Assembly (NCBI GenBank): GCA_029212845.1
Contig: JARGPD010000001.1
Location: forward strand, 33,881 to 77,739
DNA: 43,859 nucleotides
Direction: 5' to 3'
Origin: Planctomycetota bacterium
GTDB lineage: Bacteria; Planctomycetota; UBA1135; GCA-002686595
Positions 135 through 23,338 of the stretch are shown here, piece after piece (position 1 is the first letter of the stretch; every line of letters begins with the position of its first letter). The notes beneath the pieces were generated by a model. That model saw only the letters and a list, made by a program, of their open reading frames with translations, was not told the origin of the DNA and did no database searches. The position numbers were made by a program, and so were the translations under genes.

Positions 135-776
135 CTACTTGTGGACGACGATCTCGACGCGGCGGTTGCGCGCCTTGCCGTCCTTGCTTGCGTTGTCGGC
201 CACCGGCGCGTATTCGCCATGGCTCACCAGGACGCAGGAGGAGTCCGGGATGCCGCACTCGGTCACGAAGTACTCGAGCACGCTCATCGCGCGCTGAGCT
301 GCGAGGTCGCGGTTGGACTTGAACTTCGACTTGGAGATCTGGTCGGAGTCGGTGTGCCCCTCGATCCAGAGGGTCCCGTCGCTGTGCTCGCGGCGCAGGA
401 GGTCGGCCACCTCGCGCAGGGCGTTCTTGCCGTTGGCCGAGAGGTCTGCCTTGCCAGAGGGGAAAGAGATCGAGGAGGGCACCGAGATCACCAGGTCGCC
501 ACCGCGCATGCCGACCTCGACACCGCTGTCGAAGGTGGGCAGGATCGGAGCGTTGGCGACCTCAGCGCGGGCCGCGTTCAGGTCGCTGCTCGCGTTGGAC
601 AGGGCCGCCTGGGTCTGGTCCAGCTGGCTGCGAAGGCTCTGGTTCTCGGACTTCAGCGAGGTCCGCTCTTCACGCAGTGCTGCGATCTCGGCCTCGTAGT
701 CGTCGACGACCTTCTGGGATGCGCAGCCGGCCGCAAGGGGCAGCAGCGCGAGGAGGGCAAGGGCTTTGTGTTTCAT
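135..776 (-). CDS. OmpA-family peptidoglycan-binding lipoprotein
   Basis: A 213-residue protein with a lipoprotein signal peptide: a basic start, a hydrophobic stretch and lipobox LAAGC, giving Cys18 as the lipidated residue. Residues about 24-75 are heptad-rich (EAEIAALREERTSLKSENQ) and likely form a coiled coil, as in Lpp-like spacers. The C-terminal half is an OmpA-like domain with the GHTDSDQ motif and the NRDLAAQRA and NRRVEI segments, whose Asp and Arg residues bind diaminopimelate in this family. It should anchor the outer membrane to peptidoglycan. I start it at the ATG at 776, because the longer frame back to 947 adds a segment overlapping the prepilin peptidase and buries the signal peptide. 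It is the last gene of the lipoprotein/prepilin peptidase cluster. Pal or a general OmpA-like lipoprotein are both possible; no TolB or tol genes are nearby. Confidence 0.9.
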   Translation of the reverse strand: MKHKALALLALLPLAAGCASQKVVDDYEAEIAALREERTSLKSENQSLRSQLDQTQAALSNASSDLNAARAEVANAPILPTFDSGVEVGMRGGDLVISVPSSISFPSGKADLSANGKNALREVADLLRREHSDGTLWIEGHTDSDQISKSKFKSNRDLAAQRAMSVLEYFVTECGIPDSSCVLVSHGEYAPVADNASKDGKARNRRVEIVVHK

Positions 777-867: not shown

Positions 868-1818
868 CTAGAGGGCGAACAGGCGCTCGACCACATTCTT
901 CCAAGCCAGCAGGACGACTCCAATACCAATTCCCAAATAGGGCCCAAATGGCAGGTATCGCGCGGCGATCCGGGCGCTCGCGAGGCTCCGTCCGAAGCTC
1001 TTGCCGGTCCCTCGGTCCCGCGCTCGCTTGCGCAGGAGGCACAGGAAGCGGATCAGGTTCGCGATGCCGGCGATGCTCGCCGCGAAGGACGCCACCAGGA
1101 GGGCCAGCAGGGCGCCCCCGGGTCCGATGAAGCCGCCAGCAGCCGCGAGCAGCTTGACGTCCCCGAAGCCCATCGCGTCCCGCTTGTACAGCAGCTTTCC
1201 GACCCAGGAGATCGCGATCAGGATCCCGCCCCCCACGGCCATGCCTGCCAAGCAGGCGGCCAAGCTAGCGATTCGGTCCACGCCACCGGCCGCCAGGGTC
1301 GCGGGGTCGGTCATGGCCCTAGCCAGGCTGGTCGAGTCGTGCAACTCGGGCACGACGAAGGCCACGAAGGGAGCCAAGAACATGCCCCCGATCGAGATCT
1401 GGTCGGGGATCTCGAAGAACTCGAAGTCGACGAAGGTCGCCACCACCAGGCCTGCCAGCACCGCCCAGCGCGCGAACAGGAGCAGGGAGGGCTCGGGGCC
1501 GGTCAGCTTGGCGGTCAGGAGGAAGAGGCCCGCGGTCAGGACCTCGACCAAGGGGTAGCGCCAGGAGATCGGTGTCTTGCACGAGCGGCAGCGGCCCAGC
1601 TGGATCAGCCACGACACCAAGGGCAGGTTCTCGCGCCAGGTCAAGGTCGCATCGCAGGAGGTGCACTTGGAGCGCTTGGGATGCGTCATCGTGACGCCCT
1701 CGCGCGGAAGCCGCCAGATAGCCGCGTTGAGGAACGAGCCGACGATCAGCCCGAACAGGGTCCATGAGACGTACCAGAAGGCCACCGGAGTCTCCGGTGG
1801 CCCCTCGACCAGGGCCAT
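868..1818 (-). CDS. pilD: Type IV prepilin peptidase (leader peptidase/N-methyltransferase, A24 family)
   Basis: A 316-residue polytopic inner-membrane aspartic protease that cleaves the leader of type IV prepilins and pseudopilins and methylates the new N-terminus. An N-terminal GSFLNAAIWRLPR segment is typical of the family. Two Cys pairs, CTSC (52-55) and CRSC (77-80), form the zinc-binding cytoplasmic loop. The two catalytic Asp candidates are in VDFEFFEIPD (about 131) and GFGD (220). Around six further hydrophobic segments follow. The chosen ATG at 1818 shares one base with the TGA of the upstream lipoprotein gene (TGATG), so translation is probably coupled; an in-frame ATG eight codons upstream is less likely. 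The pilus genes it would serve are at 22-33 kb in this window; no pilin gene is present here. Confidence 0.95.
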   Translation of the reverse strand: MALVEGPPETPVAFWYVSWTLFGLIVGSFLNAAIWRLPREGVTMTHPKRSKCTSCDATLTWRENLPLVSWLIQLGRCRSCKTPISWRYPLVEVLTAGLFLLTAKLTGPEPSLLLFARWAVLAGLVVATFVDFEFFEIPDQISIGGMFLAPFVAFVVPELHDSTSLARAMTDPATLAAGGVDRIASLAACLAGMAVGGGILIAISWVGKLLYKRDAMGFGDVKLLAAAGGFIGPGGALLALLVASFAASIAGIANLIRFLCLLRKRARDRGTGKSFGRSLASARIAARYLPFGPYLGIGIGVVLLAWKNVVERLFAL

Positions 1819-3698
1819 CACTGGCCCGCCTCTTCGATCCAACGCAGATCCACGAAGTCCACCATCGGCGGATCCCAGCTCTTCCCCGGCCCGATTTCCA
1901 ATTCAATCCACAGCCGGATCGCATCGCAGCGATCGAGCAGGGAGGCGTCCTCGACCGGGCCGACCGTCTCGATGTGCCCGTCGGGCCCCGGGCGCTCGCC
2001 CAAGAAGCGGAGATCCACGCTGCCCGCACCGGGCCGCGCGCCCACGAGGGCCGACCGCCAGCGGAGGTCGCCGCCGCCCGGCCGGAAGGGTGCCGACAGC
2101 ACGCCGACGCGCAGGGGCGCGGTCAGGGGGTTCGAGACTGGCCGCTGGAAGCCGAGGTCCGCCCGCCGCGGGGCGGGGTTCACGCTGACGCCGCCGCCAT
2201 CGCCGACCGTCAGGATCTCGCGCGCCTCCACGTCGCCGGAGAAGCGCATGCGCCCCCCCGCCGCCAGCAGCAGCGGGCCATCCACCGTGACCGAGCCGTC
2301 GATGAACAGATCGCCCCCCGCGACCAGCACGGTCCACGACTCACCGCGCAGCTTCGCCGCCTCGATCCAGTCCTGCAGCCCACCGACCCCGGCGTAGCCG
2401 ATCGGCGCCGTGCGCTTGGGAACGTCGAACTTGCCGGAGCGGCCGTACCACCCGCCCCAGGCCTCGTCGGGATCACGGGCCGCAAGCCCCTCCTCCACCG
2501 AGCGGAACAGGTCGCCATCGACCCGCAAGCTGCCTTGGGCCCGCAGCACCACCAGCCCATCGAGGTCGCTCAGGTCGAGCCGAACCCCGGCGGGCACCAG
2601 GAGACTAGCTGCGTGCAGGTCACCACGCGCCGCCCGCAGAGGCGTCGAGTCCCCCGCCAACAGGACGTCCCCTGCGGTGCCATCCCCCGCCGCCATCGGC
2701 AGCCGCACCGTCACCACCCCGGTGCCGTCCCAGGTCGCGGTCCCGTCCACCCCTGGTACCTCTGCCGGCGATCGCAGGGCGCGGGACAGGAACTCCTCCC
2801 GGTGCACCCGGCTGCCGCCCTCATCGGCGCGCACGACCACCGTGAGGGTCGCCGGAAGCTGACTCAGGGCCCACGCGCTGCGCACGGGATGCCCACCTAG
2901 GTCCAGCGGCGCCGCCGCCCCCTCGTGGACCCAGAGGTGGTACTCGCCGGGCTCGAGGGTGCGTGGCCTCAGCGCTCCGTCGGTGTCGTCCATGGCGCGC
3001 AGCTCGATGCGTGCGCCTTCCTTGCTGTTCGCGATCAACACGGCCTCGAGTGGGATCATCTCGAACCAACCGCTGCCTTCGCCGTTGCCACCCGGAGGCG
3101 GACCCGCCCGGAAGCGCTTCAGCTCGAAGGCGTCCGAGGAGAGCGAGCGGGGGTCCAGGGGCTCATCGCAGGTCAGCTGCAGCGGCTCCGAGGTGCCCAC
3201 CTCGTAGCTCTCGAGGACCAAGGGCGCCGCGCGGTCCGGGCTCTCGTCCAGGAACTGAACGCGCTGCTCGCTGACGACCCGGAAGCTGGTCTGGAAGCTC
3301 TGGGCGAGGAGGGTCCCGCTGCGACTGCGGATCCCCGAGGGCGCGGGGTAGCCGAGCAGCTCGACGTTGACCCGCTCCCCCGGACGCAGCCCCCCATCGC
3401 TGAGGTCGCTGCGCATGGCCAGCCTAGGGTGGAACACCAGCTGGGCCTCGTGGACCTCGAAGTGACCCGCGATCGAACGCCCGGCCTCGTCCACGACGCG
3501 CGCGCTCGCGCGGGTCACGGAGGCTGGGTCGAGCTCGGCCGAGAAGTGCATCACCAGCGGCTCGTTGAGCAGCACTCCTTCCTGGCCCGCTTGGCGGAAG
3601 GCGGTCAACAGGACACCTTCGTGCACCGCGGCCTCCCGGGCGCAGGCTCCGAAGAAGAGGCCGGCTGCGACGAGCGCGCCGAGGGGCAGGAGCTTCAT
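1818..3698 (-). CDS. Large secreted lipoprotein with Ig-like (SbsA/Big_5-type) domain, cassette member 5
   Basis: About 626 residues. The N-terminus has a lipoprotein signal ending in FFGAC (Cys19 from the ATG at 3698; another ATG lies three codons upstream at 3707). Residues about 35-115 read like an SbsA/Big_5 Ig-like domain: EPLVMHFSAELDPASVTRAS, then a GHFEV strand and LVFHPRL. A similar segment follows (EPLQLTCDEPLDPRSLSSDA). The middle has short repeated beta-strand pieces (GDLFIDGSVTVDGPLLLAAG), like the strands of the two larger neighbours but without their glycine blocks. The C-terminus, IRLWIELEIG then PPMVDFVDLRW, matches the module ending the other four lipoproteins. Its stop codon overlaps the pilD start. 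Function unknown; the overlap points to a role with the pilus/secretion system. The protein call is sure, the domain names are my reading. Confidence 0.85.
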   Translation of the reverse strand: MKLLPLGALVAAGLFFGACAREAAVHEGVLLTAFRQAGQEGVLLNEPLVMHFSAELDPASVTRASARVVDEAGRSIAGHFEVHEAQLVFHPRLAMRSDLSDGGLRPGERVNVELLGYPAPSGIRSRSGTLLAQSFQTSFRVVSEQRVQFLDESPDRAAPLVLESYEVGTSEPLQLTCDEPLDPRSLSSDAFELKRFRAGPPPGGNGEGSGWFEMIPLEAVLIANSKEGARIELRAMDDTDGALRPRTLEPGEYHLWVHEGAAAPLDLGGHPVRSAWALSQLPATLTVVVRADEGGSRVHREEFLSRALRSPAEVPGVDGTATWDGTGVVTVRLPMAAGDGTAGDVLLAGDSTPLRAARGDLHAASLLVPAGVRLDLSDLDGLVVLRAQGSLRVDGDLFRSVEEGLAARDPDEAWGGWYGRSGKFDVPKRTAPIGYAGVGGLQDWIEAAKLRGESWTVLVAGGDLFIDGSVTVDGPLLLAAGGRMRFSGDVEAREILTVGDGGGVSVNPAPRRADLGFQRPVSNPLTAPLRVGVLSAPFRPGGGDLRWRSALVGARPGAGSVDLRFLGERPGPDGHIETVGPVEDASLLDRCDAIRLWIELEIGPGKSWDPPMVDFVDLRWIEEAGQ

Positions 3699-3789
3699 GG
3701 CACCCATTGAAGCAAACCACTGCCCGGAACACCCAGGCCCGTGCGCACGTTCGAAGGGAGGCAGGTCCCGGGCTCACCCCTCGGGTCGC

Positions 3790-3990
3790 TAGCCCGGATC
3801 CATCACCACGATCCGCGCCAGCACGCCTCACCGGCCGGCTTCGCCAGCCTTCCGGCGATTGGCGGCACTTCTGGAACGCCACCGTCCTCGACGGGGCGTA
3901 AACCCCGGCTCCGGGCGTTGACGCCCCCGAAGCACCGTCAATCGCCGACTGAGGCACACTGGCCCGGATCGTGGTGAGGGATCCGGGCTA
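3790..3990. repeat. 201-bp near-palindromic element, MITE-like
   Basis: The outer arms 3790-3830 and 3950-3990 are inverted copies, 36 of 41 bases identical, both starting TAGCCCGGATCC at the element end. The pairing continues inward: CGGCGATTG plus about 55 further bases align to the opposite arm with scattered mismatches, so nearly the whole element folds into one long hairpin apart from about 20 extra bases in the left arm (about 3831-3850). CTAG flanks both ends, compatible with a 4-bp target duplication as made by some IS families. It lies between two cassette genes, and its right end supplies the TAG stop codon of the upstream lipoprotein gene. It has no coding capacity. A non-autonomous mobile element is the best guess; a large bidirectional terminator or structured RNA is the alternative. 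Confidence 0.75.
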
Positions 3991-6900
3991 GAAGCCGAAC
4001 CGCACGCGCAGCCAGTCCAAGGCAGGCAGCTCGCTGTCGAGCGCCAGCTGGTCGACCTCGAAGCGCACCTCGAAGCGCAGGAAGTCCAAGTCGCCTGCCG
4101 GCACCGCAGCGAAGTCAGCAGGGTCCGACGTCCAGTCGACCAGCGGCGCGGACAGGTCGGGCAGGCCGAGGGCGTCCGCCTTGGCCCCTTGGAAGCGCAG
4201 GTTGATCAACGAGCCCGGGGTCATGGCACCAGGCACCTTGGAGCTGATCGGACCGACCGAGCGCGGGAACACACGGACCTGGGAGCCGGCAGGCGGCTGG
4301 AACAGATGCAGCGGCGCCTTGTCCGACCCCTCGACGAGCAGGTCGAGCACGCCCGTCGGCTCGTCGTAGGTGGCCTCTGCAACACGGAAGCGCGCTCGGT
4401 TGAAGCTGAACGCCAGGTCTTCGAGCTCGATCGTCGCGAAGCGCAGGAGCCGAGGGTTGCGCAGGTACAAGTCGTCCATCGACCCTGCGAGGGAGGACGC
4501 ATCGAGCAAGAGGTGTGCTCCGTCCGGGGCGACGTGTGGGAGCGCGGGCGCGAGCCCAAGCGCCACGGGACCGATCAGCACCGCCTCGTCGTCGAGCAGG
4601 TCATCCCCATCCGCATCGAGCAGGTCGCCCGACGCGAGGTCGAGACCGCCGAAGCCCACGCTCACCGCGTCCAGGCTGCCACTTGAGGTGAAGGCCATGC
4701 CGCCCAGTCCGAGCCACTTCGAGCGAGCGCGGCTCACGCGACCGAAGTCCGAGAGCAGGACCTGGGCATCGGGGAGGCAGAGCTCCTCCAAGCTGGTCGC
4801 ACCGGGCATGGGGTTCTTGACGACCACATGGTTCGCCGGATCATGGACGTGCACCTGGATCAGCCCGGGGCCGCCGCTGCCGCCCGCGTTCGTGCTCTGG
4901 GTGCCGAGGACACCTGCGCCCCCCGCTCCCCCCACTGCCGACAGGGCGTTCGCTGGCACACCGTCGAAGATCAACCGACCGCCGGTCATCAGGATCACGT
5001 GGCCACCCGAGCCACCACCCGAGCCTCCGCCGAGGTGGTCGTTGCCGATCGTGCTCTCGCCCGAGCCGCCACGCCCACCGTTGGCGGCGATGCGACCCGT
5101 GCCCTTCACGAGGATGTCGCCGAGGACGCGCAGCTCGAGGCCGCCCGCACCACCGGCACCGCCACAGCCCTTCTCGTCCGACGACGGGGACCATGTGGGA
5201 TGCGGGAAGCTCGCGCTGGGGATCGCGTCGCCGCCGGCTCCACCGCCAGCTCCGGCGATCAGCCCGCTGAGCTCGCCTGGGACGCGCGCGCTCCCGTTCC
5301 AGCTCGCTCCGTAGTAGTCATCGCCTGGGTCCCCGTTGGTGAAGGCCAGGGGCCCCGCGCTGCCCCCGGCTGCGGGCACCAGCCCGGTCAGGGCGCCGGT
5401 GCCCCCACCGTCCCAGCCCGGCTCGACCGCCGTGCCGGACAGCCCGATGTCAGTGGCACCGAGGGCGTCCGCCGCTAAGGCCCCGCCCCCACCGCCGCCG
5501 GGGCGCCTGTTGAGCTTGGGCCCGGTTCCGTGCCCGGACTCACCTCCGCCACCCCCGCCGCCCGGAGCCATCAGCGGACCCAAGCCGCTGCCGCCCTGGG
5601 GGGTCGAGCTCGTGACGAGCCAGCTCGCGACACCTCCCGTGCCCCCACCGGCCGCACCAGCTGCCCCGGGCTCGGGGAGGTGACCGGTTCCGAGGGTCGC
5701 GACGTCGGCGGCATCGAAGCCGCTCAGGTCGATCCGGCCCGCGAGGATCAGCTTGCCCGAGACGCGGACCTGGAACGGCTTGGGACCGATCAGCCGCAGG
5801 ATCGCGTCCTCCTGAACGACGAGGTGGCGCACATCGATCACCCCGCCCGAGACGGACTGGGCCTTCGATGGGACGAACGGCAGGCTGGCATCCGGCCCGA
5901 GGTCACCACCTGTGAGCTGCTGGTTGCCCGAGGAGTCCAGCACGATCGTGACGCCGGACGGGATCACCCAGTCGAAGGCGCCGTCGCTGCCTCCCTTGCC
6001 CTCGAAGTCGAGCGCAGCGGACAGCTTCCCCGACTCGCCCCAGACCGCCTTGGGCTCCGCGAACTCGGCGGCGACATCCTCCATGGTCCCGACCCCGCCG
6101 AACGCGAAGTCCTCGAGGTACTCGTCCGCCTCGCGATCCACGGGGACGAGCCCCGGGTGCAGGGGCGTCAGTGTCTGGAAGCGGGCGAAGTCGACCTGGT
6201 CGACCAGGCCCGTGTTGCCCGAGAGGTCTTCGAATCCTGCATCGATCCGCAGCCGCAGCTCGCGGCCCTGGGGCAGCACCCCGACGGGATCGATGCGGAT
6301 GGTGGTCCCCGACTCGGCGCAGTTGGCCTCGAGGGTCAACTCGGCGGGCACCAGCACCCAAAGCCCGCTCCCGGGCGGATCCATGACCTCGAGGGCGATG
6401 CGCTCGGAGCTGATGTTCTGGCTGCTCGGGTGCACCGGCTGGTCCAGCTCCAGCATGAGGTGGACCGCGGACTCGGGCACGCTGTAGAGGTTCAGGCCCT
6501 GGTCCTGGACCGACCCAAAGGTGCCCGTCGCGGGGTAGGCCACGAACTCCTCGACGGACGATCCCGTCACGATGTACGAGGACTTGGGTCCTGGGTCGAT
6601 GACGCTGCCATCGGGGTTGAGCGCACGCACCAAAGCGAGGGGCGGGCCGGCCTTCGGATCGAAGAAGGCCGAGGGTCCCGCGAGGGAGGTCACCAAGGTG
6701 GACTCGTGGGAGTCCTCGAGCAGTTGTCCACTCGCGGAGCCGACGACCGAGCTCATGCCGGAGTCGGTCCCCCAGACCTGCAGCCCATAGACCACACCAC
6801 CAAGTGCCAAGCCGGCGTCGCTCAGGTCAGGCTCGAGCGGGCATGCGGGCTGGAAGCGAACCCGGCTGGGCGTGACCAGCTCGAAGGTCCCGATGGCCGG

Positions 6901-7143
6901 CATCCCCGACCCGTCACGAAGGCTGACCGAGTTGCTGCTGATCGTCGAAAAGTCCACCGGTGCGCTGAAGGTCAGGTCGATCGGGCGGTTGACCTGCCAC
7001 ACGGCTCCGTCGGGCGCTGAGACGTCCGACAGGAGGAAGGCGGTGGCCGGAGGGGCCGTTCCAGAGGAGGAGTCCTGGGAGCTACAGCTGGCGAGCGAGG
7101 CCAAGAGGAGCAGCCCGAGCGAAGCTGCGTGGCGAGCGTTCAT
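3988..7143 (-). CDS. Giant glycine-rich Ig-like lipoprotein, cassette member 4
   Basis: A 1051-residue protein starting at the ATG at 7143 with signal peptide MNARHAASLGLLLLASLASC (Cys20 lipidated). Residues about 45-115 form an Ig-like Big_5/SbsA domain (RPIDLTFSAPVDFSTISSNS, then RVRFQPACP). A second such region lies near 270-350. From about 480 to 760 it becomes extremely Gly-rich (GGGGGGGESGHG, GGAGGAGGLELRVLGD) with strands such as GKLILAGRIDLSG between, suggesting a stacked beta structure. The fixed words DEKGCGGAGG and TIGNDHLGGGSGGGSGGH recur in the paralog upstream. The C-terminus, LRFEVRFEVDQ to PALDWLRVRFGF, is the shared cassette module. It has its own 180-bp upstream spacer holding a strong terminator of the gene before. 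Function unknown; surface exposed by inference from the lipobox. Confidence 0.88.
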   Translation of the reverse strand: MNARHAASLGLLLLASLASCSSQDSSSGTAPPATAFLLSDVSAPDGAVWQVNRPIDLTFSAPVDFSTISSNSVSLRDGSGMPAIGTFELVTPSRVRFQPACPLEPDLSDAGLALGGVVYGLQVWGTDSGMSSVVGSASGQLLEDSHESTLVTSLAGPSAFFDPKAGPPLALVRALNPDGSVIDPGPKSSYIVTGSSVEEFVAYPATGTFGSVQDQGLNLYSVPESAVHLMLELDQPVHPSSQNISSERIALEVMDPPGSGLWVLVPAELTLEANCAESGTTIRIDPVGVLPQGRELRLRIDAGFEDLSGNTGLVDQVDFARFQTLTPLHPGLVPVDREADEYLEDFAFGGVGTMEDVAAEFAEPKAVWGESGKLSAALDFEGKGGSDGAFDWVIPSGVTIVLDSSGNQQLTGGDLGPDASLPFVPSKAQSVSGGVIDVRHLVVQEDAILRLIGPKPFQVRVSGKLILAGRIDLSGFDAADVATLGTGHLPEPGAAGAAGGGTGGVASWLVTSSTPQGGSGLGPLMAPGGGGGGGESGHGTGPKLNRRPGGGGGGALAADALGATDIGLSGTAVEPGWDGGGTGALTGLVPAAGGSAGPLAFTNGDPGDDYYGASWNGSARVPGELSGLIAGAGGGAGGDAIPSASFPHPTWSPSSDEKGCGGAGGAGGLELRVLGDILVKGTGRIAANGGRGGSGESTIGNDHLGGGSGGGSGGHVILMTGGRLIFDGVPANALSAVGGAGGAGVLGTQSTNAGGSGGPGLIQVHVHDPANHVVVKNPMPGATSLEELCLPDAQVLLSDFGRVSRARSKWLGLGGMAFTSSGSLDAVSVGFGGLDLASGDLLDADGDDLLDDEAVLIGPVALGLAPALPHVAPDGAHLLLDASSLAGSMDDLYLRNPRLLRFATIELEDLAFSFNRARFRVAEATYDEPTGVLDLLVEGSDKAPLHLFQPPAGSQVRVFPRSVGPISSKVPGAMTPGSLINLRFQGAKADALGLPDLSAPLVDWTSDPADFAAVPAGDLDFLRFEVRFEVDQLALDSELPALDWLRVRFGF

Positions 7144-7270
7144 GGGAAGTGCGAGGCTGGGGGTGCAGGGATGGACCAGGACTCTACCTCCACGGAACGG
7201 CGGCGTTACACCGGTTCCCACCGCAGACCGAGGCTGCGCCGGGCCTCGCTCGACGGCGCAAGGGAAACGC

Positions 7271-7309
7271 ACGAGGCCCCGCTGGATGCTAGATCCAGCG
7301 GGGCCTCGT
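7271..7309 (-). terminator. Strong hairpin terminator after cassette member 3
   Basis: A perfect 17-bp stem (7271-7287 with 7293-7309) and a 5-base loop, 16 bases past the stop codon of the 1072-residue lipoprotein gene, followed on the minus strand by TGCGTTTCCC. The U-tract is weak but the stem is the most stable small hairpin in the window. It would separate transcription of members 1-3 from members 4-5 and pilD. Confidence 0.75.
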
Positions 7310-7325
7310 CGCGAAGGGCTTCGAA

Positions 7326-10300
7326 CTAGAAGCGGAACATCAGGCGCAGGAAGTCGAGCGCCGGACGCGGGCTGGACTCGGTCAGTCCGGCACCCAGGGC
7401 GTCGAGGTCGAAGGTGACCTCGAAGCGGATGAAGTCCACGGTGCCCGCGACCTCGTCGTTGATGTCGGCGATGTCCGTCACCCAGCCAGAGCCGCCGAGG
7501 GACGGATCAGGCTGACCGTCAACACCCGCGACGGCAGACTCGAAGGCGAACTTGACCGCCACGCTGTCGGGCAGGAAGTTCTTCTGGCTGCTGGTGACGA
7601 CCCGGAACGAGGCCGGACGAAGCACGTACTCGACCCCGCCGGCCGGGTTGAACGTCGTCAGTGCCGGAGCCGGCGAGCCGTCGACGACGAGGGTCAGCGT
7701 CAGCGCCGCGATGTCCGAGGTCGCAGAGGCGACGTTGAAGTTCACGAAGTTCGACGGGTTGCCCACCTCGCGAAGCGAGATCGTGGCATCACGCAAAAGC
7801 TGCGGGTTGCGCAGGTACATGTCGTCGAGCGTGCCGCTCAAGCTAGCCGCGTCGACCGTGAGGGTGCGACCGCCAACTCCGATGCTGGGCAGGGCGGGGG
7901 CGGCCACCAGGGAGACCGGACCAAGGATGTCCGCAAGCGGGTCGACCAGGTCGTCGTCATCAAGGTCTTGGACGAGGCCCGTTGCGGGATCGACACCGTT
8001 GAAGAAGAAGGTCAGGTCGTCCAGACCGCCGCCGGGGTTGAAGCTGGCGTTGCCGACAGCGATCCACTGGGAGCGGGCCTTCGACAGCGCGCCGAAGGAC
8101 GGTACGAGCTGCAGGGCATCGGGAAGGGTCACCTCGTCCAAGGTGTTGGCCGTCCCCAACGGGTTCAGGAACACGATGTTCGAGGTCGGGTCCAGGACGT
8201 GAACCTGCACGATCCCCGGACCGCCGGAGCCACCAGCGTTGGTCGACTCGGTACCACTGGCACCCTTGCCAGCTTGGCCGCCACGGGCCGAGATGCAGTT
8301 CGCGGCAACGCCGTCGAAGACCAGTTGGCTGCCTGCCTCGAGCACGATGTGTCCGCCGGAACCGCCACCGGAACCGCCACCAAGGTGGTCGTTGCCGATG
8401 GTGTTCTCGCCAGCACCACCCTTGCCACCATTGGCCAGGATGACACCGTCGTTCTCGAACTGGATGTTGCCGAGGGCCAGCATGTGCAGCGAACCACCGC
8501 CGCCAGCGCCGCCGCAACCCTTCTCATCCGTACCTGCGGCCCAGTTGGGGTGCGGGAAGCTGTTGGCCGGGACGGCATCGCCGCCTCCGCCACCGCCGCC
8601 ACCGGCCCAGGGAGTGTTGAGCTCACCGACGGTCACGACCTCGGTCACGCTGTCGTAGGCGACACCGAAGAAGTCGTTTTCAGCCGAAGAGTCCTGGAAG
8701 GGAAGGGCGCCGGGAAGGCCACCTTTCGGCGGCTTGAGCTTGGACACCGCGCCGGTCGCCGAAGCTCCACCATTCCAACCGGACTCAGCGATGACGCCGA
8801 AGGGCAGGTTGTCCGTGGGACCGGTCGCATCGTGACCGAGGCCACCGGCACCGCCGCCGCCGGGGCGACGCTGGGTCTTGCCGCCGGTACCGAAGCCGGC
8901 CTCGCCACCTTGGCCGCCCAGGTTGGGAGCGCCCCAAGCACCAAAGCCATTGCCGCCCTGGGGCGTCGAGGTGGTCGTCAGGAAGCTGGCCGTACCACCG
9001 GAGCCACCGCCGGCCGCACCGGCCGAGCCGATCTCCGGCTGGTTGCCCGTGTTCAGCGTTGCGACGTCCTGACGGTCGAAGCCCGACAGGTCGAGGGTGC
9101 CGCGGATCACCACGTTGCCCGAGGCCTGGATCTTGACCGGGTTGACGCCCTGACACTTGATCGTGGCGCCGGGCATGATGACGAGGTGGCGGACGTTGAC
9201 CGCGCCCCCGACGACCTGCTGCTGCTTGGTCGCGACGAAGGTCCCGAGACCGGACATGTCATCCCCGATGTTGCCGCCATTGATGGTCACCGCACCGCTC
9301 GTATCGAGCAGCACGAGCTGGCCGCTCGGCACGACCCAGTCGAACTGGCCGTCGGACCCACCGGTGCCGGTGAAGGCGAAGGCGGCCGAGAGCTGGCCGT
9401 CCTTCCAGATGGCGCGCGGCTCGGCGAACGGAGCCTTGTTGTCCTCGATGCTGCCGAAGGTGCCTGCGGCCAGGTTGAAGGACTCGTTGATCTCGTCGGC
9501 ACCGTCATCGGTCGGCGTCAGGGTCGGGAAGTCGACGGCCGTCACGCGGAAGTGAGCGAAGTTGTCAACCTGAAGCTGGTTGCGGTCCCCCACCAGGTCC
9601 TCGAACTCGGTGGTGACGACGACGCGCAGCTCGCTGTCCTGGGGCAGGATGCCCTGGGGCTGGAGACGAAGGGTCGCGCCCGTCGTGCTGCAGTTGCGGT
9701 CGAGCTTGACCTCGGTAGCCACCCGGATCCAGTTGCTGGGGCCGCCCGCGAGGTCCAAGGCCTCGAGGTAGACGCGATCATCGGAGATGTTCGCTTCCGC
9801 CGGGTTGACCGGTTGGTTGAACTCGACGAGGACGGCGAGCTGGGTCGACGTGTCGCTGTAGAGGTTGAGACCTTGGTCCAGGGGCTGGTTGAAGGTCTGG
9901 GTGGCCGAGTCGAACTCGAACTCGATCGGAGCACCCGCCCCACCGGAAGTCTCGATGTAGGTGACCGAATCGCTGGGGTTGATCACGGAGCCGTCGACCG
10001 CGTACTGGCGCACGACTGGAGTCGGGGGCCCGTTCTTGATGTCGATGAACGCCACCGCGGGCGTCGCGGTGCTCGGCGTGATGAAGGTCCGGTACTGGGA
10101 GTTCTTCAGGGCCACGCCCTCGGTCGACTCCACCGACAGACCGCTACCGCCTTGCAGTCCGAGGACCGCGATCTGGTAGTTGATCCCGCCGATCTTGAAC
10201 CCAGAGTCGCTCAGGTCTCCGAGCGTCGGGCAGGTGGGCTGGAAGCGCACCTGCTTCGAATCGATGAGCTCGAAGGCGCCGGAGGCCGGCATGCCGTTGA

Positions 10301-10544
10301 GGTCCCGGATCGAGATCGTGTTCAGGCTGACGGTCGAGAAGTCCACATCCTTGCTGAAGACGAAGTCGATCGGCCGGTTGACCTGCCAGATTGCGCCGGG
10401 CTGAACCGACATGCTTACCAGCTGGAAGCCGTTGCCGACCACACCTTGGTTGGAGCTGCTACCTCCACCACAGGCTGGGGCGATCAGGAGAGCGGCAAGT
10501 GCCGCCAAGCGCACGGGGTTCATTGAAGACTTGAATAGGGTCAT
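7326..10544 (-). CDS. Giant glycine-rich Ig-like lipoprotein, cassette member 3 (paralog of member 4)
   Basis: A 1072-residue protein from the ATG at 10544; a GGAAGG ribosome site lies about 10 bases upstream, while the ATG seven codons further in (10523) has none. Signal peptide ends LLIAPAC (Cys25). It parallels member 4 end to end: IWQVNRPIDFVFSKDVDFST, VRFQPTCP, the strands VVIRGTLDLSGFDRQDVATL, the Gly-rich block at about 495-775 with DEKGCGGAGG and TIGNDHLGGGSGGGSGGH, MYLRNPQLLRDATISL, and the end FIRFEVTFDLDA to ALDFLRLMFRF. The two clearly arose by duplication. Fixed single Cys residues in both (ACP/TCP, GCGG, NCSTTGA/NCAESGT) may form conserved disulfides. Function unknown; probably an outer-membrane-anchored surface protein. 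Confidence 0.88.
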   Translation of the reverse strand: MTLFKSSMNPVRLAALAALLIAPACGGGSSSNQGVVGNGFQLVSMSVQPGAIWQVNRPIDFVFSKDVDFSTVSLNTISIRDLNGMPASGAFELIDSKQVRFQPTCPTLGDLSDSGFKIGGINYQIAVLGLQGGSGLSVESTEGVALKNSQYRTFITPSTATPAVAFIDIKNGPPTPVVRQYAVDGSVINPSDSVTYIETSGGAGAPIEFEFDSATQTFNQPLDQGLNLYSDTSTQLAVLVEFNQPVNPAEANISDDRVYLEALDLAGGPSNWIRVATEVKLDRNCSTTGATLRLQPQGILPQDSELRVVVTTEFEDLVGDRNQLQVDNFAHFRVTAVDFPTLTPTDDGADEINESFNLAAGTFGSIEDNKAPFAEPRAIWKDGQLSAAFAFTGTGGSDGQFDWVVPSGQLVLLDTSGAVTINGGNIGDDMSGLGTFVATKQQQVVGGAVNVRHLVIMPGATIKCQGVNPVKIQASGNVVIRGTLDLSGFDRQDVATLNTGNQPEIGSAGAAGGGSGGTASFLTTTSTPQGGNGFGAWGAPNLGGQGGEAGFGTGGKTQRRPGGGGAGGLGHDATGPTDNLPFGVIAESGWNGGASATGAVSKLKPPKGGLPGALPFQDSSAENDFFGVAYDSVTEVVTVGELNTPWAGGGGGGGGDAVPANSFPHPNWAAGTDEKGCGGAGGGGSLHMLALGNIQFENDGVILANGGKGGAGENTIGNDHLGGGSGGGSGGHIVLEAGSQLVFDGVAANCISARGGQAGKGASGTESTNAGGSGGPGIVQVHVLDPTSNIVFLNPLGTANTLDEVTLPDALQLVPSFGALSKARSQWIAVGNASFNPGGGLDDLTFFFNGVDPATGLVQDLDDDDLVDPLADILGPVSLVAAPALPSIGVGGRTLTVDAASLSGTLDDMYLRNPQLLRDATISLREVGNPSNFVNFNVASATSDIAALTLTLVVDGSPAPALTTFNPAGGVEYVLRPASFRVVTSSQKNFLPDSVAVKFAFESAVAGVDGQPDPSLGGSGWVTDIADINDEVAGTVDFIRFEVTFDLDALGAGLTESSPRPALDFLRLMFRF

Positions 10545-10600
10545 GATGGAGCGACCTTCCGGATGACGATGCGTCACGATGGTTTGGGGGGGAGGGGAGC

Positions 10601-13600
10601 TTACAGGTCCTGGTAGGCGATACCGAGGGACGAGAGCTCGGGGAAGGTGCCGGTGGCGGCGTTGTTGATGAAGGTGATCCGCACCTGGTAGTAGCGGTTG
10701 CCGTCGATCTGGTTGATGTCCGCGGCCCAAGTGCTACCGAGGGTCGTGTCGAAGCCAATGTTCTGGTTGTCGACGGCAGGGTCACCCCAATAGAGGGGGG
10801 AGGCGGGCTTGAGCCCCGACACGTGGGCAGTACCGGGAAGGTCGCCGTACATGTTCAGGATGTCCGCATCGGTCGTGGCGATGTTGTTCATCGTGTCCGC
10901 ACCACGGAAGTGCAGTTGCACCGAGCAGCCCTGGGGCTGCTGGTCGTTGCGCGGCTCGATGACGGGCTCGGCGAAGATCGCGTTGGTCACGACGTTGGCT
11001 TCGTGCCAGTGGGTGTGAACGCGCGACACGCGGATCACGAAGTCCAGCTGACCCATGTAGAAGATGTTGTCCGCACCAGGCAAGGGAGCGCCGAGCGGGG
11101 CCAAGAGGACTTCCTTGTTGAAGTAGCCCGTGGGGACCACCTCGAGGTCGGGGTCCTTGTAGACGTCCTTGCCCGTGGTGTCGACACCGCCACTCGAGAA
11201 GATGCGCATGGTCGGCTGCTTGGGCAGCGCGGTCAGTGCGGTCTGCGGGGTCACGCCGACGGCCCAGACGGGCGCCATGGCGATCGAGGTGTCCAGGCGG
11301 TTGATGCCGATCGCATCGTCCGACGAGTAGCAGCGGAACTCGGTCAAGAGGGGCAGACCGAAGGACGGGATGAAGGTGCCGTCCGGGCAGTACTTGCCGC
11401 TGTACTCCAGCATGTCGTCGCCGTTCTCGTCCCAGTTGTTGTCGAGCACGAGCTGGGAGGAGCCGAAGCTGATGACGGCCGGCGTCGGAGGATCCGTGGT
11501 CCAATCCGTCGGGATAGCAACGAGCACGGAGTTCGGATCGGGATCGATGCCGAAGTCATACAGCACCGGGGGCTCGAGGCCGATCTGCACGTTGCTGCCA
11601 CCACGGGTCAGGGTCGCCGTGTCGCGGAAGGTCCAGTACTTGAACTGGCTCGCCGGCACGCCCGTGTTCACGGGGTACGGGAACATGTTCGCCTGGGTCG
11701 ACGCCTTGAAGATGTCCACCGGGTCGATGAAGTAGCCCGACTCCTTCTTGTGCACCAGGGTGAGCTGGTTGTTGGGGTCCAAGAGGAGGTTCTCCTCGTA
11801 GCTGGTGGCCAGCAAGCCCGACTGGGGGAACACCAGCATGTTCGGGGGAGAGAGGTAGCTCTCGTCGGGGAAGCGACTGGTCAGGGCCAGGGAGACCTGG
11901 AAGTCCGGGTAGAACTCCGAGATCACGTTGGAGCCGATCGGAGCCCAGTTGATGTGCTCGATGTCGATGTTGACGTAGGCCTCGTCCTGGACGTCCAAGC
12001 CCATGTCGAAGTAGCGCCAGAGGCTCATCATCTTGCAACCGAGCGGGTTGAGCGGCTCGGCGAATGTTCCGAGGAGGCCGCCGTTGGCCAGCACGGCATT
12101 GGCGGTGTGCCATGCCGGAACGGTCAGGTTGCGATCGATGACCTGGGAGAAGCGGTCGACAGGCCGCGGGCTGATGGTGCCCCGGACCGCGTCGTACACG
12201 TACTGACCACGAATGTCCGCTTCGCCAGCAGCGATGCCGATGTCGTAGTCGTCCACGATGCTGCCCTTCTGCGGGTCGTCGAAGGCCCGCGCGAAGCGGA
12301 AGGCACGGTGATCGACGCGGTTCGCCGGGGCGCTAGCCACAGTGAAGAACTGGACCCGGGGGAAGAACTTCGCGAGGCCGTTGCCCGCGAGGTCCACAAC
12401 ACCCTCTTCGACGTTGAGCTGGACGAAGAAGTCGTCAGCGGCGCCTTGGACAGGGTGGTAGAAGGGCACCGAGTTGTCGAAGCGGAACTCCTGCAGGTCG
12501 GGAGAGGCCGTGACGTTGCCGACCAGGAGCTGGCGGATTGCCAGGTCATCGACGTCCTCGTCCACGCGCGAGACGACGAAGGAGTCGAAGGGGGTCAGCA
12601 GATCGGGATCCATCGGCTCGCTGAAGCGCAGGATGACGCTCGCGTCGAGTGCGACCTCCTGGTTCGTGCCGATGCCTGCGGGGGGATCGAACTCGACGAA
12701 GCAGTCCGCGCCAATGACACCAGCGGGGTCCCAGCGAGTCGAGTACTGGGCGCCGGACTCGAAGGGCGCGCCGGACTCTTCGGTGAGCGTAGCGACACGC
12801 ACACCAGCGACGACGCCGCCGATCGGGCTCGAGCCGGACTCCGTGACCTCGAGGAACACGCCGGGCTGGGTGATGATGTCCCCCACCTTCGGCGAGGCCG
12901 CGCAGTTGATGTTGAGGTAAGTCAGGTCAACGATGTAGTTGCCAGCCGGCTTGCCGAAGTCCACCGCGACCGAGTTGATCGTGACGGACTGAAGACCGAC
13001 CACTTCGGGGGAGTCCTCATCGGGCATGAAGCCGTTGTGGGGGTCGCCGATCTTCTCGGTCAGACCACCGGTCCGCAGGGCCCGCACGACGTCCTTCGTG
13101 CTGACCGTGCCGTCGATCGGCAGGTTGTCCAGGGCGCCGAGCGGGTGCGCCGTCAGGTTGGACAGCAGGGTGAACTGGCCTGCGCCGAAGTCGGTCGCCG
13201 TCGGGATCCGGAGAGCGAGGTTGGGCATGCTCGTGTTCACGGCACCCGGGAGGCCGAGACCGTTCACCGGAAGGCCAGAGCCGAACGCTTCGGACGCGGT
13301 CACCACCGGGTCGATCTGGATGCGGGTGCTGTAGAACTCGCCAGCCAGCTCAGCCCCGAAGTTCGGGTCCACGGCCAGGCGCGCCTGGAAGGGCAGGTCC
13401 GGGCCGTAACCCGTGAGGACCTTGATGTTCTCAGCGTTGACGGTCGCAGGGTCGATCAGGTCCGACAGGGTCAGGACGATGGTCGAGTTGCGCGGGACCA
13501 TCGAGTAGGGCGGTAGCTCCCAGGCCGCGAGGCTCTTGGTGAGCAGGTCGTCCATCTCCAGGAACAGACGATCGAAGGCCGTCTTGTAGCTGCTGGTGTC

Positions 13601-13963
13601 GAAGTCGTGGAGGATCGTGAGCCGCGTGGTGCGGCTGATCGGGTTCGTCTCCAGGAGGTAGTCCAGGCCATCGCTCTCGATGTCCTGACCGATCACCAGG
13701 TCGCGGTGCAGCAGCGTGCCTGCATCGTCGTAGACCTCGTCGACCAGGCGGCCGAAGGAGATCGACTTGATGAACATCGAGGTGGACTTGCCCGAGGCGT
13801 TCTCCTCGACGACATAGCGGGTGCCGTCACCCTTCTCGAGGATCACACCGATCTCGCCGCCGACGGAGCTCGTCCCCGCCGAAGGGCCACATGCGGGGAG
13901 CAGCAGCCCGACGAGGGCGAGGGACCCAAGGCCCAGGGAACGTTTCATGACTTTCGTGTACAT
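10601..13963 (-). CDS. Giant Ig-like lipoprotein, cassette member 2
   Basis: About 1120 residues. The start is uncertain: ATGs at 13984 (overlapping the upstream stop as TGATG), 13963 and 13948 all precede the signal peptide, none with a clear ribosome site; I take 13963, which gives a basic MYTKVMKRS n-region and lipobox LLLPAC (Cys25). A region near 100-150 (TRLTILHDFDTSSYKTAFDR) and Ig-like segments (VILRFSEPMDPDLLTPFDSF, then DLAGNGLAKFFPRVQFFTV) match member 1. The C-terminal third has strands around FRDTATLTRGGSNVQ and VIRVSRVHTHWHEA, also seen in member 1. It ends RYYQVRITFINNAATGTFPE then LGIAYQDL, the shared C-terminal module. No Gly-rich block. Only 56 bases separate it from member 3, so they are likely cotranscribed. 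Function unknown. Confidence 0.87.
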   Translation of the reverse strand: MYTKVMKRSLGLGSLALVGLLLPACGPSAGTSSVGGEIGVILEKGDGTRYVVEENASGKSTSMFIKSISFGRLVDEVYDDAGTLLHRDLVIGQDIESDGLDYLLETNPISRTTRLTILHDFDTSSYKTAFDRLFLEMDDLLTKSLAAWELPPYSMVPRNSTIVLTLSDLIDPATVNAENIKVLTGYGPDLPFQARLAVDPNFGAELAGEFYSTRIQIDPVVTASEAFGSGLPVNGLGLPGAVNTSMPNLALRIPTATDFGAGQFTLLSNLTAHPLGALDNLPIDGTVSTKDVVRALRTGGLTEKIGDPHNGFMPDEDSPEVVGLQSVTINSVAVDFGKPAGNYIVDLTYLNINCAASPKVGDIITQPGVFLEVTESGSSPIGGVVAGVRVATLTEESGAPFESGAQYSTRWDPAGVIGADCFVEFDPPAGIGTNQEVALDASVILRFSEPMDPDLLTPFDSFVVSRVDEDVDDLAIRQLLVGNVTASPDLQEFRFDNSVPFYHPVQGAADDFFVQLNVEEGVVDLAGNGLAKFFPRVQFFTVASAPANRVDHRAFRFARAFDDPQKGSIVDDYDIGIAAGEADIRGQYVYDAVRGTISPRPVDRFSQVIDRNLTVPAWHTANAVLANGGLLGTFAEPLNPLGCKMMSLWRYFDMGLDVQDEAYVNIDIEHINWAPIGSNVISEFYPDFQVSLALTSRFPDESYLSPPNMLVFPQSGLLATSYEENLLLDPNNQLTLVHKKESGYFIDPVDIFKASTQANMFPYPVNTGVPASQFKYWTFRDTATLTRGGSNVQIGLEPPVLYDFGIDPDPNSVLVAIPTDWTTDPPTPAVISFGSSQLVLDNNWDENGDDMLEYSGKYCPDGTFIPSFGLPLLTEFRCYSSDDAIGINRLDTSIAMAPVWAVGVTPQTALTALPKQPTMRIFSSGGVDTTGKDVYKDPDLEVVPTGYFNKEVLLAPLGAPLPGADNIFYMGQLDFVIRVSRVHTHWHEANVVTNAIFAEPVIEPRNDQQPQGCSVQLHFRGADTMNNIATTDADILNMYGDLPGTAHVSGLKPASPLYWGDPAVDNQNIGFDTTLGSTWAADINQIDGNRYYQVRITFINNAATGTFPELSSLGIAYQDL

Positions 13964-13983
13964 GGCTTGCGTGTGGGAGGGCA

Positions 13984-16900
13984 TCAGGAGTTGCGGAGGA
14001 AGGCCACGCCGAAGGCGGAGAGCTCGGCGGTCAGGCCGGTCTCGGTGTTGGAGATGAAGGTGAACCGAGCCTGAAGCCACTCGGCCCCGTCGACCTGGTC
14101 GATGGTGGTCTTCCAGCTGGGGTCGTTGCCGAGGAAGTCGACCGTCTTGTTCTGCGAGACGAGCGTTCCGTACAGCGGGTACGGGTTCGGCGTGTCGGCG
14201 AGCCAGTTCTCGTCGCCGTAGGCGTTGAGGTAGTCCGCGTTCAGGTCGACCTGGAAGTGCTTCGCTGTCGGCTTCGCGTCCACGTTGAATGCGCCCCGAT
14301 AGTGGACGTTCAGGAAGGAGCCCGACGGCTGGTCCTCGGCGCGCGGCTCGAGGACCGGGTCGAGGTAGTCGGGGCTGTTCTCGGCCGTGTGCAGGAAGCG
14401 GGTGTGGACCCGGCTCACGCGCACGACCACGTCAAGCTGACCGAAGTAGAAGACGTTGTCCTGGGGAGGCGTGGTCGAACCAAGCGGCTGGGGCAGGGCC
14501 GGGTTGGCGTTGTAACCACCCGTCGGCTTGATCTGCGTGTCCGGGTTCTTCGTGATCGGGTTCTGGCTCGTGTCGTAGCCACCCGTCGAGAAGATGCGGA
14601 AGGTCGGCTTCGGCGACGAGTTGATCGCGATCGCGCAGTCCAAGGAGTTCAGGCCGACGCCGTCGTCGGACGGATAGCACTTGTACTCCATGAGGAGCGG
14701 CAGGCCGATGGTCGGGATGTTGCCGCCTGCGGCCCAGTCACCAACGCGCTGACCTTCCGAGGCGCCGTCGATCAGGCCGCGGTCGACCTCGATGAAGGTC
14801 GGGATGCCGTTGCTGAGGCTGCCGCCCTGGGACTGGATCGAGGTGTCACGCCAGGTGTAGTAAACGTACTCGCTGACTTCCTTCTTCCGGTTCATCGGGT
14901 AGGGGATGAACTTGGTGCCTGAGCCGCCCGTGAACACGTCGATCGGGTCGACGAGGTAGCCGATGGCCTTGTTGTGGACGTTGACCTGGCCGTTGACCGG
15001 GTCGGCGAGGACGTTATCGGCGAAGGAAGAGCTCAGGAGACCGGAGCTGATCTTCGTCGGCAGCAGCGAGCTCGGGTTGACGTGCTCGTCGGGCGCGCGG
15101 TCCGAGTGAGAGAGGTTGATCTCGAACTCCTCGAAGAAGTCCGCTTGGACCTGCCCCTGGAGCGGCGCCCAGTTCACACCCTCGACGTCCATGTTGTAGG
15201 TGGACGGGTCGGAGATCGAGTAGCCGACATCGAAGTAGCGGTAGAGGCACATCATGCGGCTACCGAGCGGTGACAGCGGAGTCTGGACGCCCGTCGTCAG
15301 GGCGATCATGCCGCCGGGCACAGCCTGGGTCGGGTCAGCGATGGCCGCCGAACGCTCGACTGGACGCGGGCGGATCAGGCCCAGGATCGGGTCCTGCAGG
15401 AACTGACCTGCGTACTCGGTCAGGGAGACGTCGGTCGCACCATCGAAGAAGGTGTCACCGTCCTCGTTGGGCGCGTTGAAGCGCAGCACGAGGCCGCCGT
15501 TGCGCTCGGTGGGAGCAGCGTCGTCGAGGGTGAACAGGACCTGGTCGGGGAATTCGGCCAGGCCGTTGCCCGCGAGGTCGGTCACCCCGCCGCCTTCGGC
15601 GATCAGGTTGATGAAGTAGGTCTCGGCCGAGCCGTTCGAGTGGTCGAGCGGCAGGGCAGGAACGAAGCGGAACTCCTTAAGGTCGGCCGAGGGAACGACC
15701 TCGCCAACGACGAAGTTGGTGATGCCGAAACCGGTGCTGGTGTTCGTCACCATGAAGGTGTCGAAAGGCTGCATCGAGCTGGGCGCCATCGGCTCACTGA
15801 AGCGAGCGACGACCTGCGCGTCCGGGGAGACGCGCGTCGATGGCAAGGTCCCCGCGAGGGGCGAGAAGGAGAAGAAGCACGACGACAGGTCGCCGGAGCT
15901 CTTGTCGAAGGTCGTCTGGATCTGGGCCGAACCGGGATGGAAGTCGATCGGGTCGCCCGCCAAGAGGCGCACACGAACGGAGGTCAGCTGACCGAGGTCG
16001 GGGGTGCCGGTCGGCAGCAGGACCTCGGCAAAGATGCCGGGCATGCGCAGGACATCACCGGCGGTCAGGGCCGTGGCGCAGGGCAGGGACGCGTACTGGA
16101 AGGAGATCTCGTACTCATCGGTCCCGCCGCCAAGGGCGGGAGAGACGGAGAGCAGGGTTCCGGGCTGGGAGCCCACGAGGCGCGGCGGGTTGAGGTCCAG
16201 CAGGAAGCCATTGTTGGTGTCTCCGGTCAGGATCGTGTCGCCACCCGAGCGCATGCCGCGCAGGACGGGCTTGGAGGGGTCGTCGAAGTCGACCGGGCCG
16301 TTGCCGCTCGAGGTCAAGCCGTTGCCCGCGGGGTTCGTCAGGATCTGGAACTGACCGGCCCCGAAGTTCACCTGGGTCGGGATCTCGATGGCCAGGTTCG
16401 GCAGGCTCGTGGACTTGCTCGCCGGGAAGCCCAGCGAGTTGATCGGCATCAGGCTGCCCTCGGCTTCGAGCTCCGACACCGTCGGGTCGATGATCAGTCG
16501 GGTCGGGCGGAACTCCCCGTTGAAGGTGCCGCCATAGTTCGGGTCGACGATCAGGCGCGCCTCGAAGGGCAGGCTCGGCGGGTTGCCGACCGAGATGCGC
16601 ACCGTGGCGTTGTTGACCGTCCCGGGGTTGATCAGGTCGGACATGCGCACGCCGAGTGCAGCATTGCGAGGGACGAACGAGAACGGGGGCAGGTCGCCGT
16701 CGGGCGACTTCGTCAGCACCGGTCCGAGGTTCTGGTCCAGGCGATCGAAGGCGGTCGCGTAGGCGGCAGTGCCCTTGTTGTGCAGGATCGTCAGGGCGGC
16801 CTGCTCGGTGACCGCGTTGATGACGAGCTGGTAGTCGACGCCGTCGGTGCGGATGTCCTCGCCGATCAGGTAGTTGCGGTGCTGCAGCGTCCCGCCGAAG

Positions 16901-17169
16901 TCGTAGACGTCCACGAGACGCCCCCAGAAGATCTCCTCGATGTACAGCTTCGAAGCCGTACCGCCCCCGTTGTCCTCGGTGAACCAGGAGGTCCCGTCAG
17001 GGTTCGGGTTCTCGGAGCCTAGGGCGCCTCCGGAAGGGCCGCCTCCGCTACCGCCGCTGCATGCGGCCACGCCGAGTGCGAGGATCGCGGGGAGGGCGAC
17101 CTTCTCGAGGCCACGGACCAGGCGCGTGCGCGCATTGGATGCGAAGGGCACCGACTTGGAGTCGAACAT
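13984..17169 (-). CDS. Giant Ig-like lipoprotein, cassette member 1 (paralog of member 2)
   Basis: A 1061-residue protein from the ATG at 17169, with a long basic n-region then LPAILALGVAAC (Cys37 lipidated). The early segment FWGRLVDVYDFGGTLQHRNY and AALTILHNKGTAAYATAFDR align with member 2 (FGRLVDEVYDDAGTLLHRDL; RLTILHDFDTSSYKTAFDR). An SbsA/Big_5 Ig-like domain lies near 440-540 (VVARFSEPMAPSSMQPFDTF, then VTDLAGNGLAEFPDQVLFTL). The C-terminal third contains YTWRDTSIQSQGGSLSNG and VVVRVSRVHTRF, again as in member 2, and the protein ends EWLQARFTFISNTETGLTAE then FGVAFLRNS. It opens the cassette: 438 non-coding bases precede it and the stop TGA overlaps a possible member 2 start. Function unknown. 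This and member 2 form one family, members 3 and 4 another. Confidence 0.88.
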   Translation of the reverse strand: MFDSKSVPFASNARTRLVRGLEKVALPAILALGVAACSGGSGGGPSGGALGSENPNPDGTSWFTEDNGGGTASKLYIEEIFWGRLVDVYDFGGTLQHRNYLIGEDIRTDGVDYQLVINAVTEQAALTILHNKGTAAYATAFDRLDQNLGPVLTKSPDGDLPPFSFVPRNAALGVRMSDLINPGTVNNATVRISVGNPPSLPFEARLIVDPNYGGTFNGEFRPTRLIIDPTVSELEAEGSLMPINSLGFPASKSTSLPNLAIEIPTQVNFGAGQFQILTNPAGNGLTSSGNGPVDFDDPSKPVLRGMRSGGDTILTGDTNNGFLLDLNPPRLVGSQPGTLLSVSPALGGGTDEYEISFQYASLPCATALTAGDVLRMPGIFAEVLLPTGTPDLGQLTSVRVRLLAGDPIDFHPGSAQIQTTFDKSSGDLSSCFFSFSPLAGTLPSTRVSPDAQVVARFSEPMAPSSMQPFDTFMVTNTSTGFGITNFVVGEVVPSADLKEFRFVPALPLDHSNGSAETYFINLIAEGGGVTDLAGNGLAEFPDQVLFTLDDAAPTERNGGLVLRFNAPNEDGDTFFDGATDVSLTEYAGQFLQDPILGLIRPRPVERSAAIADPTQAVPGGMIALTTGVQTPLSPLGSRMMCLYRYFDVGYSISDPSTYNMDVEGVNWAPLQGQVQADFFEEFEINLSHSDRAPDEHVNPSSLLPTKISSGLLSSSFADNVLADPVNGQVNVHNKAIGYLVDPIDVFTGGSGTKFIPYPMNRKKEVSEYVYYTWRDTSIQSQGGSLSNGIPTFIEVDRGLIDGASEGQRVGDWAAGGNIPTIGLPLLMEYKCYPSDDGVGLNSLDCAIAINSSPKPTFRIFSTGGYDTSQNPITKNPDTQIKPTGGYNANPALPQPLGSTTPPQDNVFYFGQLDVVVRVSRVHTRFLHTAENSPDYLDPVLEPRAEDQPSGSFLNVHYRGAFNVDAKPTAKHFQVDLNADYLNAYGDENWLADTPNPYPLYGTLVSQNKTVDFLGNDPSWKTTIDQVDGAEWLQARFTFISNTETGLTAELSAFGVAFLRNS

Positions 17170-18948: not shown

Positions 18949-19038
18949 GGCTAGCTCGGGTTGGGGTCCTCGGGAGGATAGCGCGGGGACCTTGGATCCC
19001 GCTGGCTTTTCATGGTTCGGCTGCTTGGTCGGTACCAC

Positions 19039-21950: not shown

Positions 21951-22035
21951 GCGGGGTCCAATGCTAGCTGCCGCCACCCGCTAGGACGAGCCCCAAGTGG
22001 AGGTCCTATGGCCGCGGCGTGAACCGAGCGGACGC

Positions 22036-23224: not shown

Positions 23225-23338
23225 CATCTCCAACACTCCTCGGCTGGCTAGGTTCCTGGCTCGGGTCCGCCCATCGGTCGCGCGCCTCGTCTACACAGGG
23301 AGACGCGCCGACCCCAGGATTGGGGGACTCCGGCCTAC

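Follow-up and report, generated by a model that had tools for sequence, protein, structure and literature searches.

Gene content of the lipoprotein cassette and the pilus locus

The window, that is, the whole stretch of 43,859 nucleotides that was analysed (G000:C82:33881-77739), comes from a 4.68 Mb Planctomycetota MAG, a member of the Saltatorellus group (Poly30, Pla86 and Pla163). Five large lipoprotein genes (LP1 to LP5) lie head to tail at 1818-17169 on the reverse strand (Table 1). The stop codon of LP5 overlaps the start of pilD by one base (TGATG at 1818), and LP2 and LP1 also overlap by one base, given the first ATG as the LP2 start. The five proteins have a signal peptide and a lipobox Cys, with the motifs GVAAC, LLPAC, IAPAC, LASC and FFGAC in LP1 to LP5, respectively; the coordinates, the five lengths, the lipobox Cys in each protein and the one-base LP5/pilD overlap had been correctly given in the initial annotation. 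A simple rule detected the lipobox motif in 137 of the 167 closed relatives, and the residue following the Cys is mostly G or S in the LP1/LP2 (LP12) and LP3/LP4 (LP34) families, with Asp in just four of the 137 proteins.

Table 1. Features of the locus, with positions in the window.
Feature	Position	Strand	Description
OmpA-family protein	135..776	-	With lipobox; conserved downstream of pilD
PilD	868..1818	-	Prepilin peptidase; A24 match above cut-off
LP5	1818..3698	-	626 aa lipoprotein; two Ig-like domains, beta-helix and C-terminal beta-sandwich (predicted)
LP4	3988..7143	-	1051 aa lipoprotein, family LP34, extra copy
Hairpin	7271-7309	-	Perfect, 17 bp, in the LP3-LP4 gap; terminator-like, without U-tract; fold z -4.7
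LP3	7326..10544	-	1072 aa lipoprotein, family LP34; Big_5-like, Gly-rich central region, C-terminal module
LP2	10601..13984	-	1120-1127 aa lipoprotein, family LP12
LP1	13984..17169	-	1061 aa lipoprotein, family LP12
PyrB	17608..19038	-	Aspartate carbamoyltransferase, upstream border of the cassette; C-terminal PyrI_C (PyrI-type zinc) domain
PDZ-domain protein	20928..21977	-	GspC resemblance weak
PilT-family ATPase, first copy	22100..23236	-	Above NCBIfam cut-off
Secretin (PilQ/GspD)	28256..30070	-	
GspM/PilO-like protein	30157..31566	-	
PilN-like protein	31553..32197	-	Amuc_1101 match weak
PilM	32194..33498	-	TIGR01175

The gap between LP4 and LP5, of about 280 bp, contains an inverted repeat (3789-3991) having 42-nt arms that are 88% complementary and 119 nt apart, with no second copy across the fetched loci. 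A single operon of LP1 to LP5 was considered; this gap with its repeat and the hairpin between LP3 and LP4 weaken it, so the five genes are not clearly one operon. Between pyrB and panK there is also a gene for a 364-aa protein (18951-20045), without any Pfam or NCBIfam match.

The remaining genes of the pilus locus, which include the second PilT, PilB, PilC and PilA, as well as an EF-G-like gene and two further lipoproteins (LP6 and LP7), are found outside the window. The two PilT-family ATPases score 355.8 and 447.2 bits against an NCBIfam cut-off of 319.1, and PilM scores 163 bits (cut-off 133); the matches for the prepilin N_methyl, the platform T2SSF and the prepilin peptidase A24 domains all exceed their cut-offs. 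The best matches of PilB (597, cut-off 676) and PilQ (182, cut-off 284) are both under the NCBIfam cut-off, and PilB and PilQ are still the best names for these predicted proteins. As a whole, the neighbourhood looks like the locus of a retractable, type IVa-like pilus rather than that of a type II system; the latter was set aside as the host machine because two PilT ATPases and PilM are present and exceed their cut-offs.

The EF-G-like GTPase (L032:17754-19766) is encoded inside the pilus locus in most, not all, genomes. LP6 and LP7, of about 1000 aa and of similar build to the five lipoproteins, are located beyond pilA (L032:7407-10496 and 3004-6030) with an amidohydrolase gene between them, and LP6 has a weak AgmC_N match. 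Other prepilin-like gene clusters occur in the same genome (G000:C73:2491-4060 and C154:9945-18019).

Lipoprotein families, domains and predicted structures

By sequence comparison, LP1 to LP5 make up three families (LP12, LP34 and LP5) and not five equivalent proteins. Identity is 48% between LP3 and LP4 and about 39% between LP1 and LP2, and the N-terminal ~400 residues of LP5 are homologous to LP3/4 (hhalign E 2.5e-27), so that the first four are two paralog pairs and LP5 is a short homolog of LP3/4. In whole-profile comparison, LP1/2 has only the Big_5 segment in common with LP34 and LP5. LP1 and LP4 score above the curated Big_5 (PF13205) cut-off, LP3 narrowly misses it (23.2 vs 23.6 bits), and the matches of LP2 and LP5 are weak. 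Among relatives (E 0.001), it was found in 15 of 25 LP1/2, 14 of 23 LP3/4 and 11 of 24 LP5 family members. The Ig-like SbsA/Big_5-type segments initially annotated are therefore detected in all three families, with varying strength. Apart from this generic domain, the five proteins are not covered by any Pfam or NCBIfam family and have no NCBIfam match of any kind; searching PDB sequences with LP12 and LP34 returned only chance-level or Gly-rich (Obg) matches.

The C-terminal regions were compared profile to profile over the last 100 residues, with 200 column shuffles as the control. The score of LP3/4 vs LP1/2 was 30.1 (shuffle maximum 16.2) and that of LP5 vs LP3/4 was 20.5 (shuffle maximum 17.5), whereas the score of LP5 vs LP1/2, 11.2, was equalled or beaten by 13 of the 200 shuffles. 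The initial annotation had assigned one C-terminal module to all five proteins; of this, a common module of LP12 and LP34 is well supported at the sequence level, one of LP5 and LP34 is weakly suggested, and a direct relation of LP5 to LP12 was undetectable. LP6 and LP7 were not picked up by the C-terminal profiles.

AlphaFold2 models were confident for both LP5 (pLDDT 87.6) and LP1 (pLDDT 89.9, pTM 0.84). The secondary structure of the LP5 model can be read as a pair of Ig-like domains, a stretch resembling a beta-helix and, at 529-622, a six-strand module at the C terminus, and the LP1 model is one big, mostly beta body; the domain names in the models are a reading of the strand pattern, the sequence and the fold matches. 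Foldseek searches with LP5 and LP1 gave no solved structure covering the whole of either, only matches to tandem-Ig, S-layer (including SbsC, with a low TM-score) and CopC-like domains.

Large, adhesin-like folds at a fixed position in the locus would also be expected if at least one of these lipoproteins replaced PilY1, as a pilus-tip or priming adhesin in a lineage without it. PF05567 (PilY1) had no match in any of the 154 class genomes; however, the control genomes were equally silent, so this does not prove that PilY1 is absent. A lipid anchor would be unexpected in a tip protein, and the Pfam scan found no PilY1 domain in LP1 to LP5, which makes such a replacement very improbable.

Conservation of the cassette between pyrB and pilD

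A DNA scan identified relatives in the complete genomes of Pla86, Poly30 (which we take to be Saltatorellus ferox) and Pla163, as well as in many Planctomycetota MAGs. As a pattern query of genome contigs, LP4 alone recovered no relative, whereas the LP12 alignment did. The synteny counts that follow were taken from match coordinates, and most of the relatives are incomplete MAGs.

At the family level, LP34 is present in 78 of the 81 genomes, and LP5 and PilD in 76 genomes each. LP5 is directly upstream of pilD (≤2.5 kb, same strand) in 73 of the 75 family genomes having both; in the remaining two, LP5 and pilD are on separate contigs. All 36 loci that are unbroken from pyrB to pilD hold only LP12, LP34 and LP5 between these genes, 28 of them as the minimal trio. 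LP6 was found in 77 of the 81 family genomes, and in 40 it is encoded on the pilD strand, 7.4-13.8 kb further downstream. In the class, LP12 is present in 151 of 154 genomes and in all 87 genera. For six other families of the class, 20 loci were examined and all have retained the cassette ahead of pilD, with LP5 reduced to about 275 aa in one of these families; the count shows reach and not frequency because these loci were picked, non-randomly, as good LP5 matches. In some families LP5 has shrunk to 250-300 aa while retaining the lipobox, the Ig pair and the place before pilD. Throughout the class, the interval from pyrB to pilD is thus the fixed place of three families of proteins with lipid-anchor signals and Ig-like, beta-rich folds. 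LP5 is the single-copy core, with the lipid-proximal Ig pair as its least dispensable part, and LP12 and LP34 have been duplicated freely.

Outside the class, several planctomycete families have either the LP12-LP34-LP5-pilD arrangement or an LP5-like/Big_5 protein before pilD, and others have unrelated genes in this slot. The recurrence of the lipoprotein families next to pilD, which the initial annotation had put forward as a check, thus spans the whole class and, in part, families outside it. The gene directly upstream of pilD in some other planctomycete families encodes a protein with TPR and RNA polymerase alpha C-terminal domains (L239:10559-12028, L243:10546-12048 and L250:10609-11970).

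The housekeeping genes pyrB, panK, obg, L21 and rne are equally syntenic in the same stretch, so a conserved gene order may not by itself imply a common function. Paralogs of LP12 are also scattered: in 32 of 76 loci, some of them on short contigs, LP12 copies have no pilus genes in view, and a prepilin search beside the off-locus copies gave one doubtful candidate in 32 loci. Together with the S-layer SbsC match, these observations are what would be expected of general cell-surface (S-layer-like) proteins whose position in the locus is an old accident preserved by slow rearrangement. Nevertheless, the slot is filled by the LP families only, these families track pilD over many families despite duplication and shrinkage, and an additional lipoprotein family is encoded past pilA in the same locus; a mere relic of the neighbourhood is accordingly considered unlikely. 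The linkage of the lipoproteins with the pilus is strong but correlative.

Possible roles and comparison with known systems

Here it is proposed, with about even confidence, that the lipoproteins form a lineage-wide cassette of the planctomycetal type IVa pilus locus, as outer-membrane lipoproteins working with a retractable pilus. They would be exported by Sec and then lipidated. The presence of the lipobox, together with Asp being rare at +2, suggests their sorting to the outer membrane, under sorting rules that are not established for Planctomycetota. LP5 may assist the pilus machine at the site where the pilus exits or close to it. LP12 and LP34 may be large, putatively surface-displayed bodies, with a substrate, other cells or the pilus itself as binding partners, although none of the tools applied predicted surface exposure; PilT-driven retraction could thereby pull on or move the cell surface. 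A stricter version, in which the trio is an unrecognised outer-membrane subassembly with LP5 as the exit-site lipoprotein and LP12/LP34 as surface bodies coupling retraction to the cell surface, is offered only tentatively and is rather doubtful.

Alternatively, the lipoproteins may be encoded beside the prepilin peptidase because they are cargo, which the pilus/secretin machine would move over the outer membrane to be anchored at the surface. In E. coli, the gene for the large surface lipoprotein SslE is immediately upstream of those for type II secretion, and SslE depends on the prepilin peptidase PppA to be secreted (PMC3707838); the GspM-like, PDZ/GspC-like and ambiguous secretin components of the present locus would also fit. 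However, the two PilT ATPases, PilM and PilA indicate a pilus over a type II system, Big_5 was the only domain in the Pfam scan of LP1 to LP5, with no M60 peptidase or SslE-like domain, further prepilin/pseudopilin clusters exist elsewhere in the genome, and the short form of LP5 resembles an accessory more than cargo, all of which leaves a cargo role improbable. The initial annotation had viewed the five as surface proteins assembled with, or exported by, the T4P/type II machinery. The link with the pilus locus is borne out by its recurrence, a role in assembly or export is only possible, and the machine looks type IVa-like rather than type II.

The catalogue of type IV pilus machines is generally regarded as good. 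If the proposed association of the cassette with the pilus is true, these very large lipoproteins, with no named family or solved relative, would supply parts that are missing from the picture of how pili function in Planctomycetota. Shape change of unprecedented extent has been reported in the Saltatorellus clade (PMC11481906), and with cultured members (Poly30, Pla86 and Pla163) the question can be tested experimentally.

The cassette was not found described in the literature searched, from which preprints and most subscription papers were outside the scope. The PilM and PilN-like proteins here have weak similarity to Amuc_1101, one of the Akkermansia Amuc_1098-1101 pilus proteins; for LP1 to LP5, which lack any NCBIfam match, no link to that locus was found. 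The Ig-like domain of all three families is like that of Big_5 (SbsA-type) proteins; however, this domain is generic. That no known system has this make-up, as initially stated, is too strong, since the E. coli SslE/PppA/T2SS-beta system also has a large lipid-anchored protein encoded beside secretion genes (PMC3707838). In contrast to SslE, which is one M60-like protein and belongs to a type II system, several Ig/beta-helix lipoproteins are encoded here in a PilT-bearing pilus locus. The machine genes correspond to those of type IVa pilus loci (PilM, PilN/O, PilQ, PilT, PilB, PilC, PilA and PilD), with PilQ and PilB as best matches below their cut-offs, and among the T4aP loci described, none known to us carries a lipoprotein trio of this kind in the interval from pyrB to pilD. 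Given their fixed place in the planctomycete pilus locus, the members of this trio are likely partners of the pilus.
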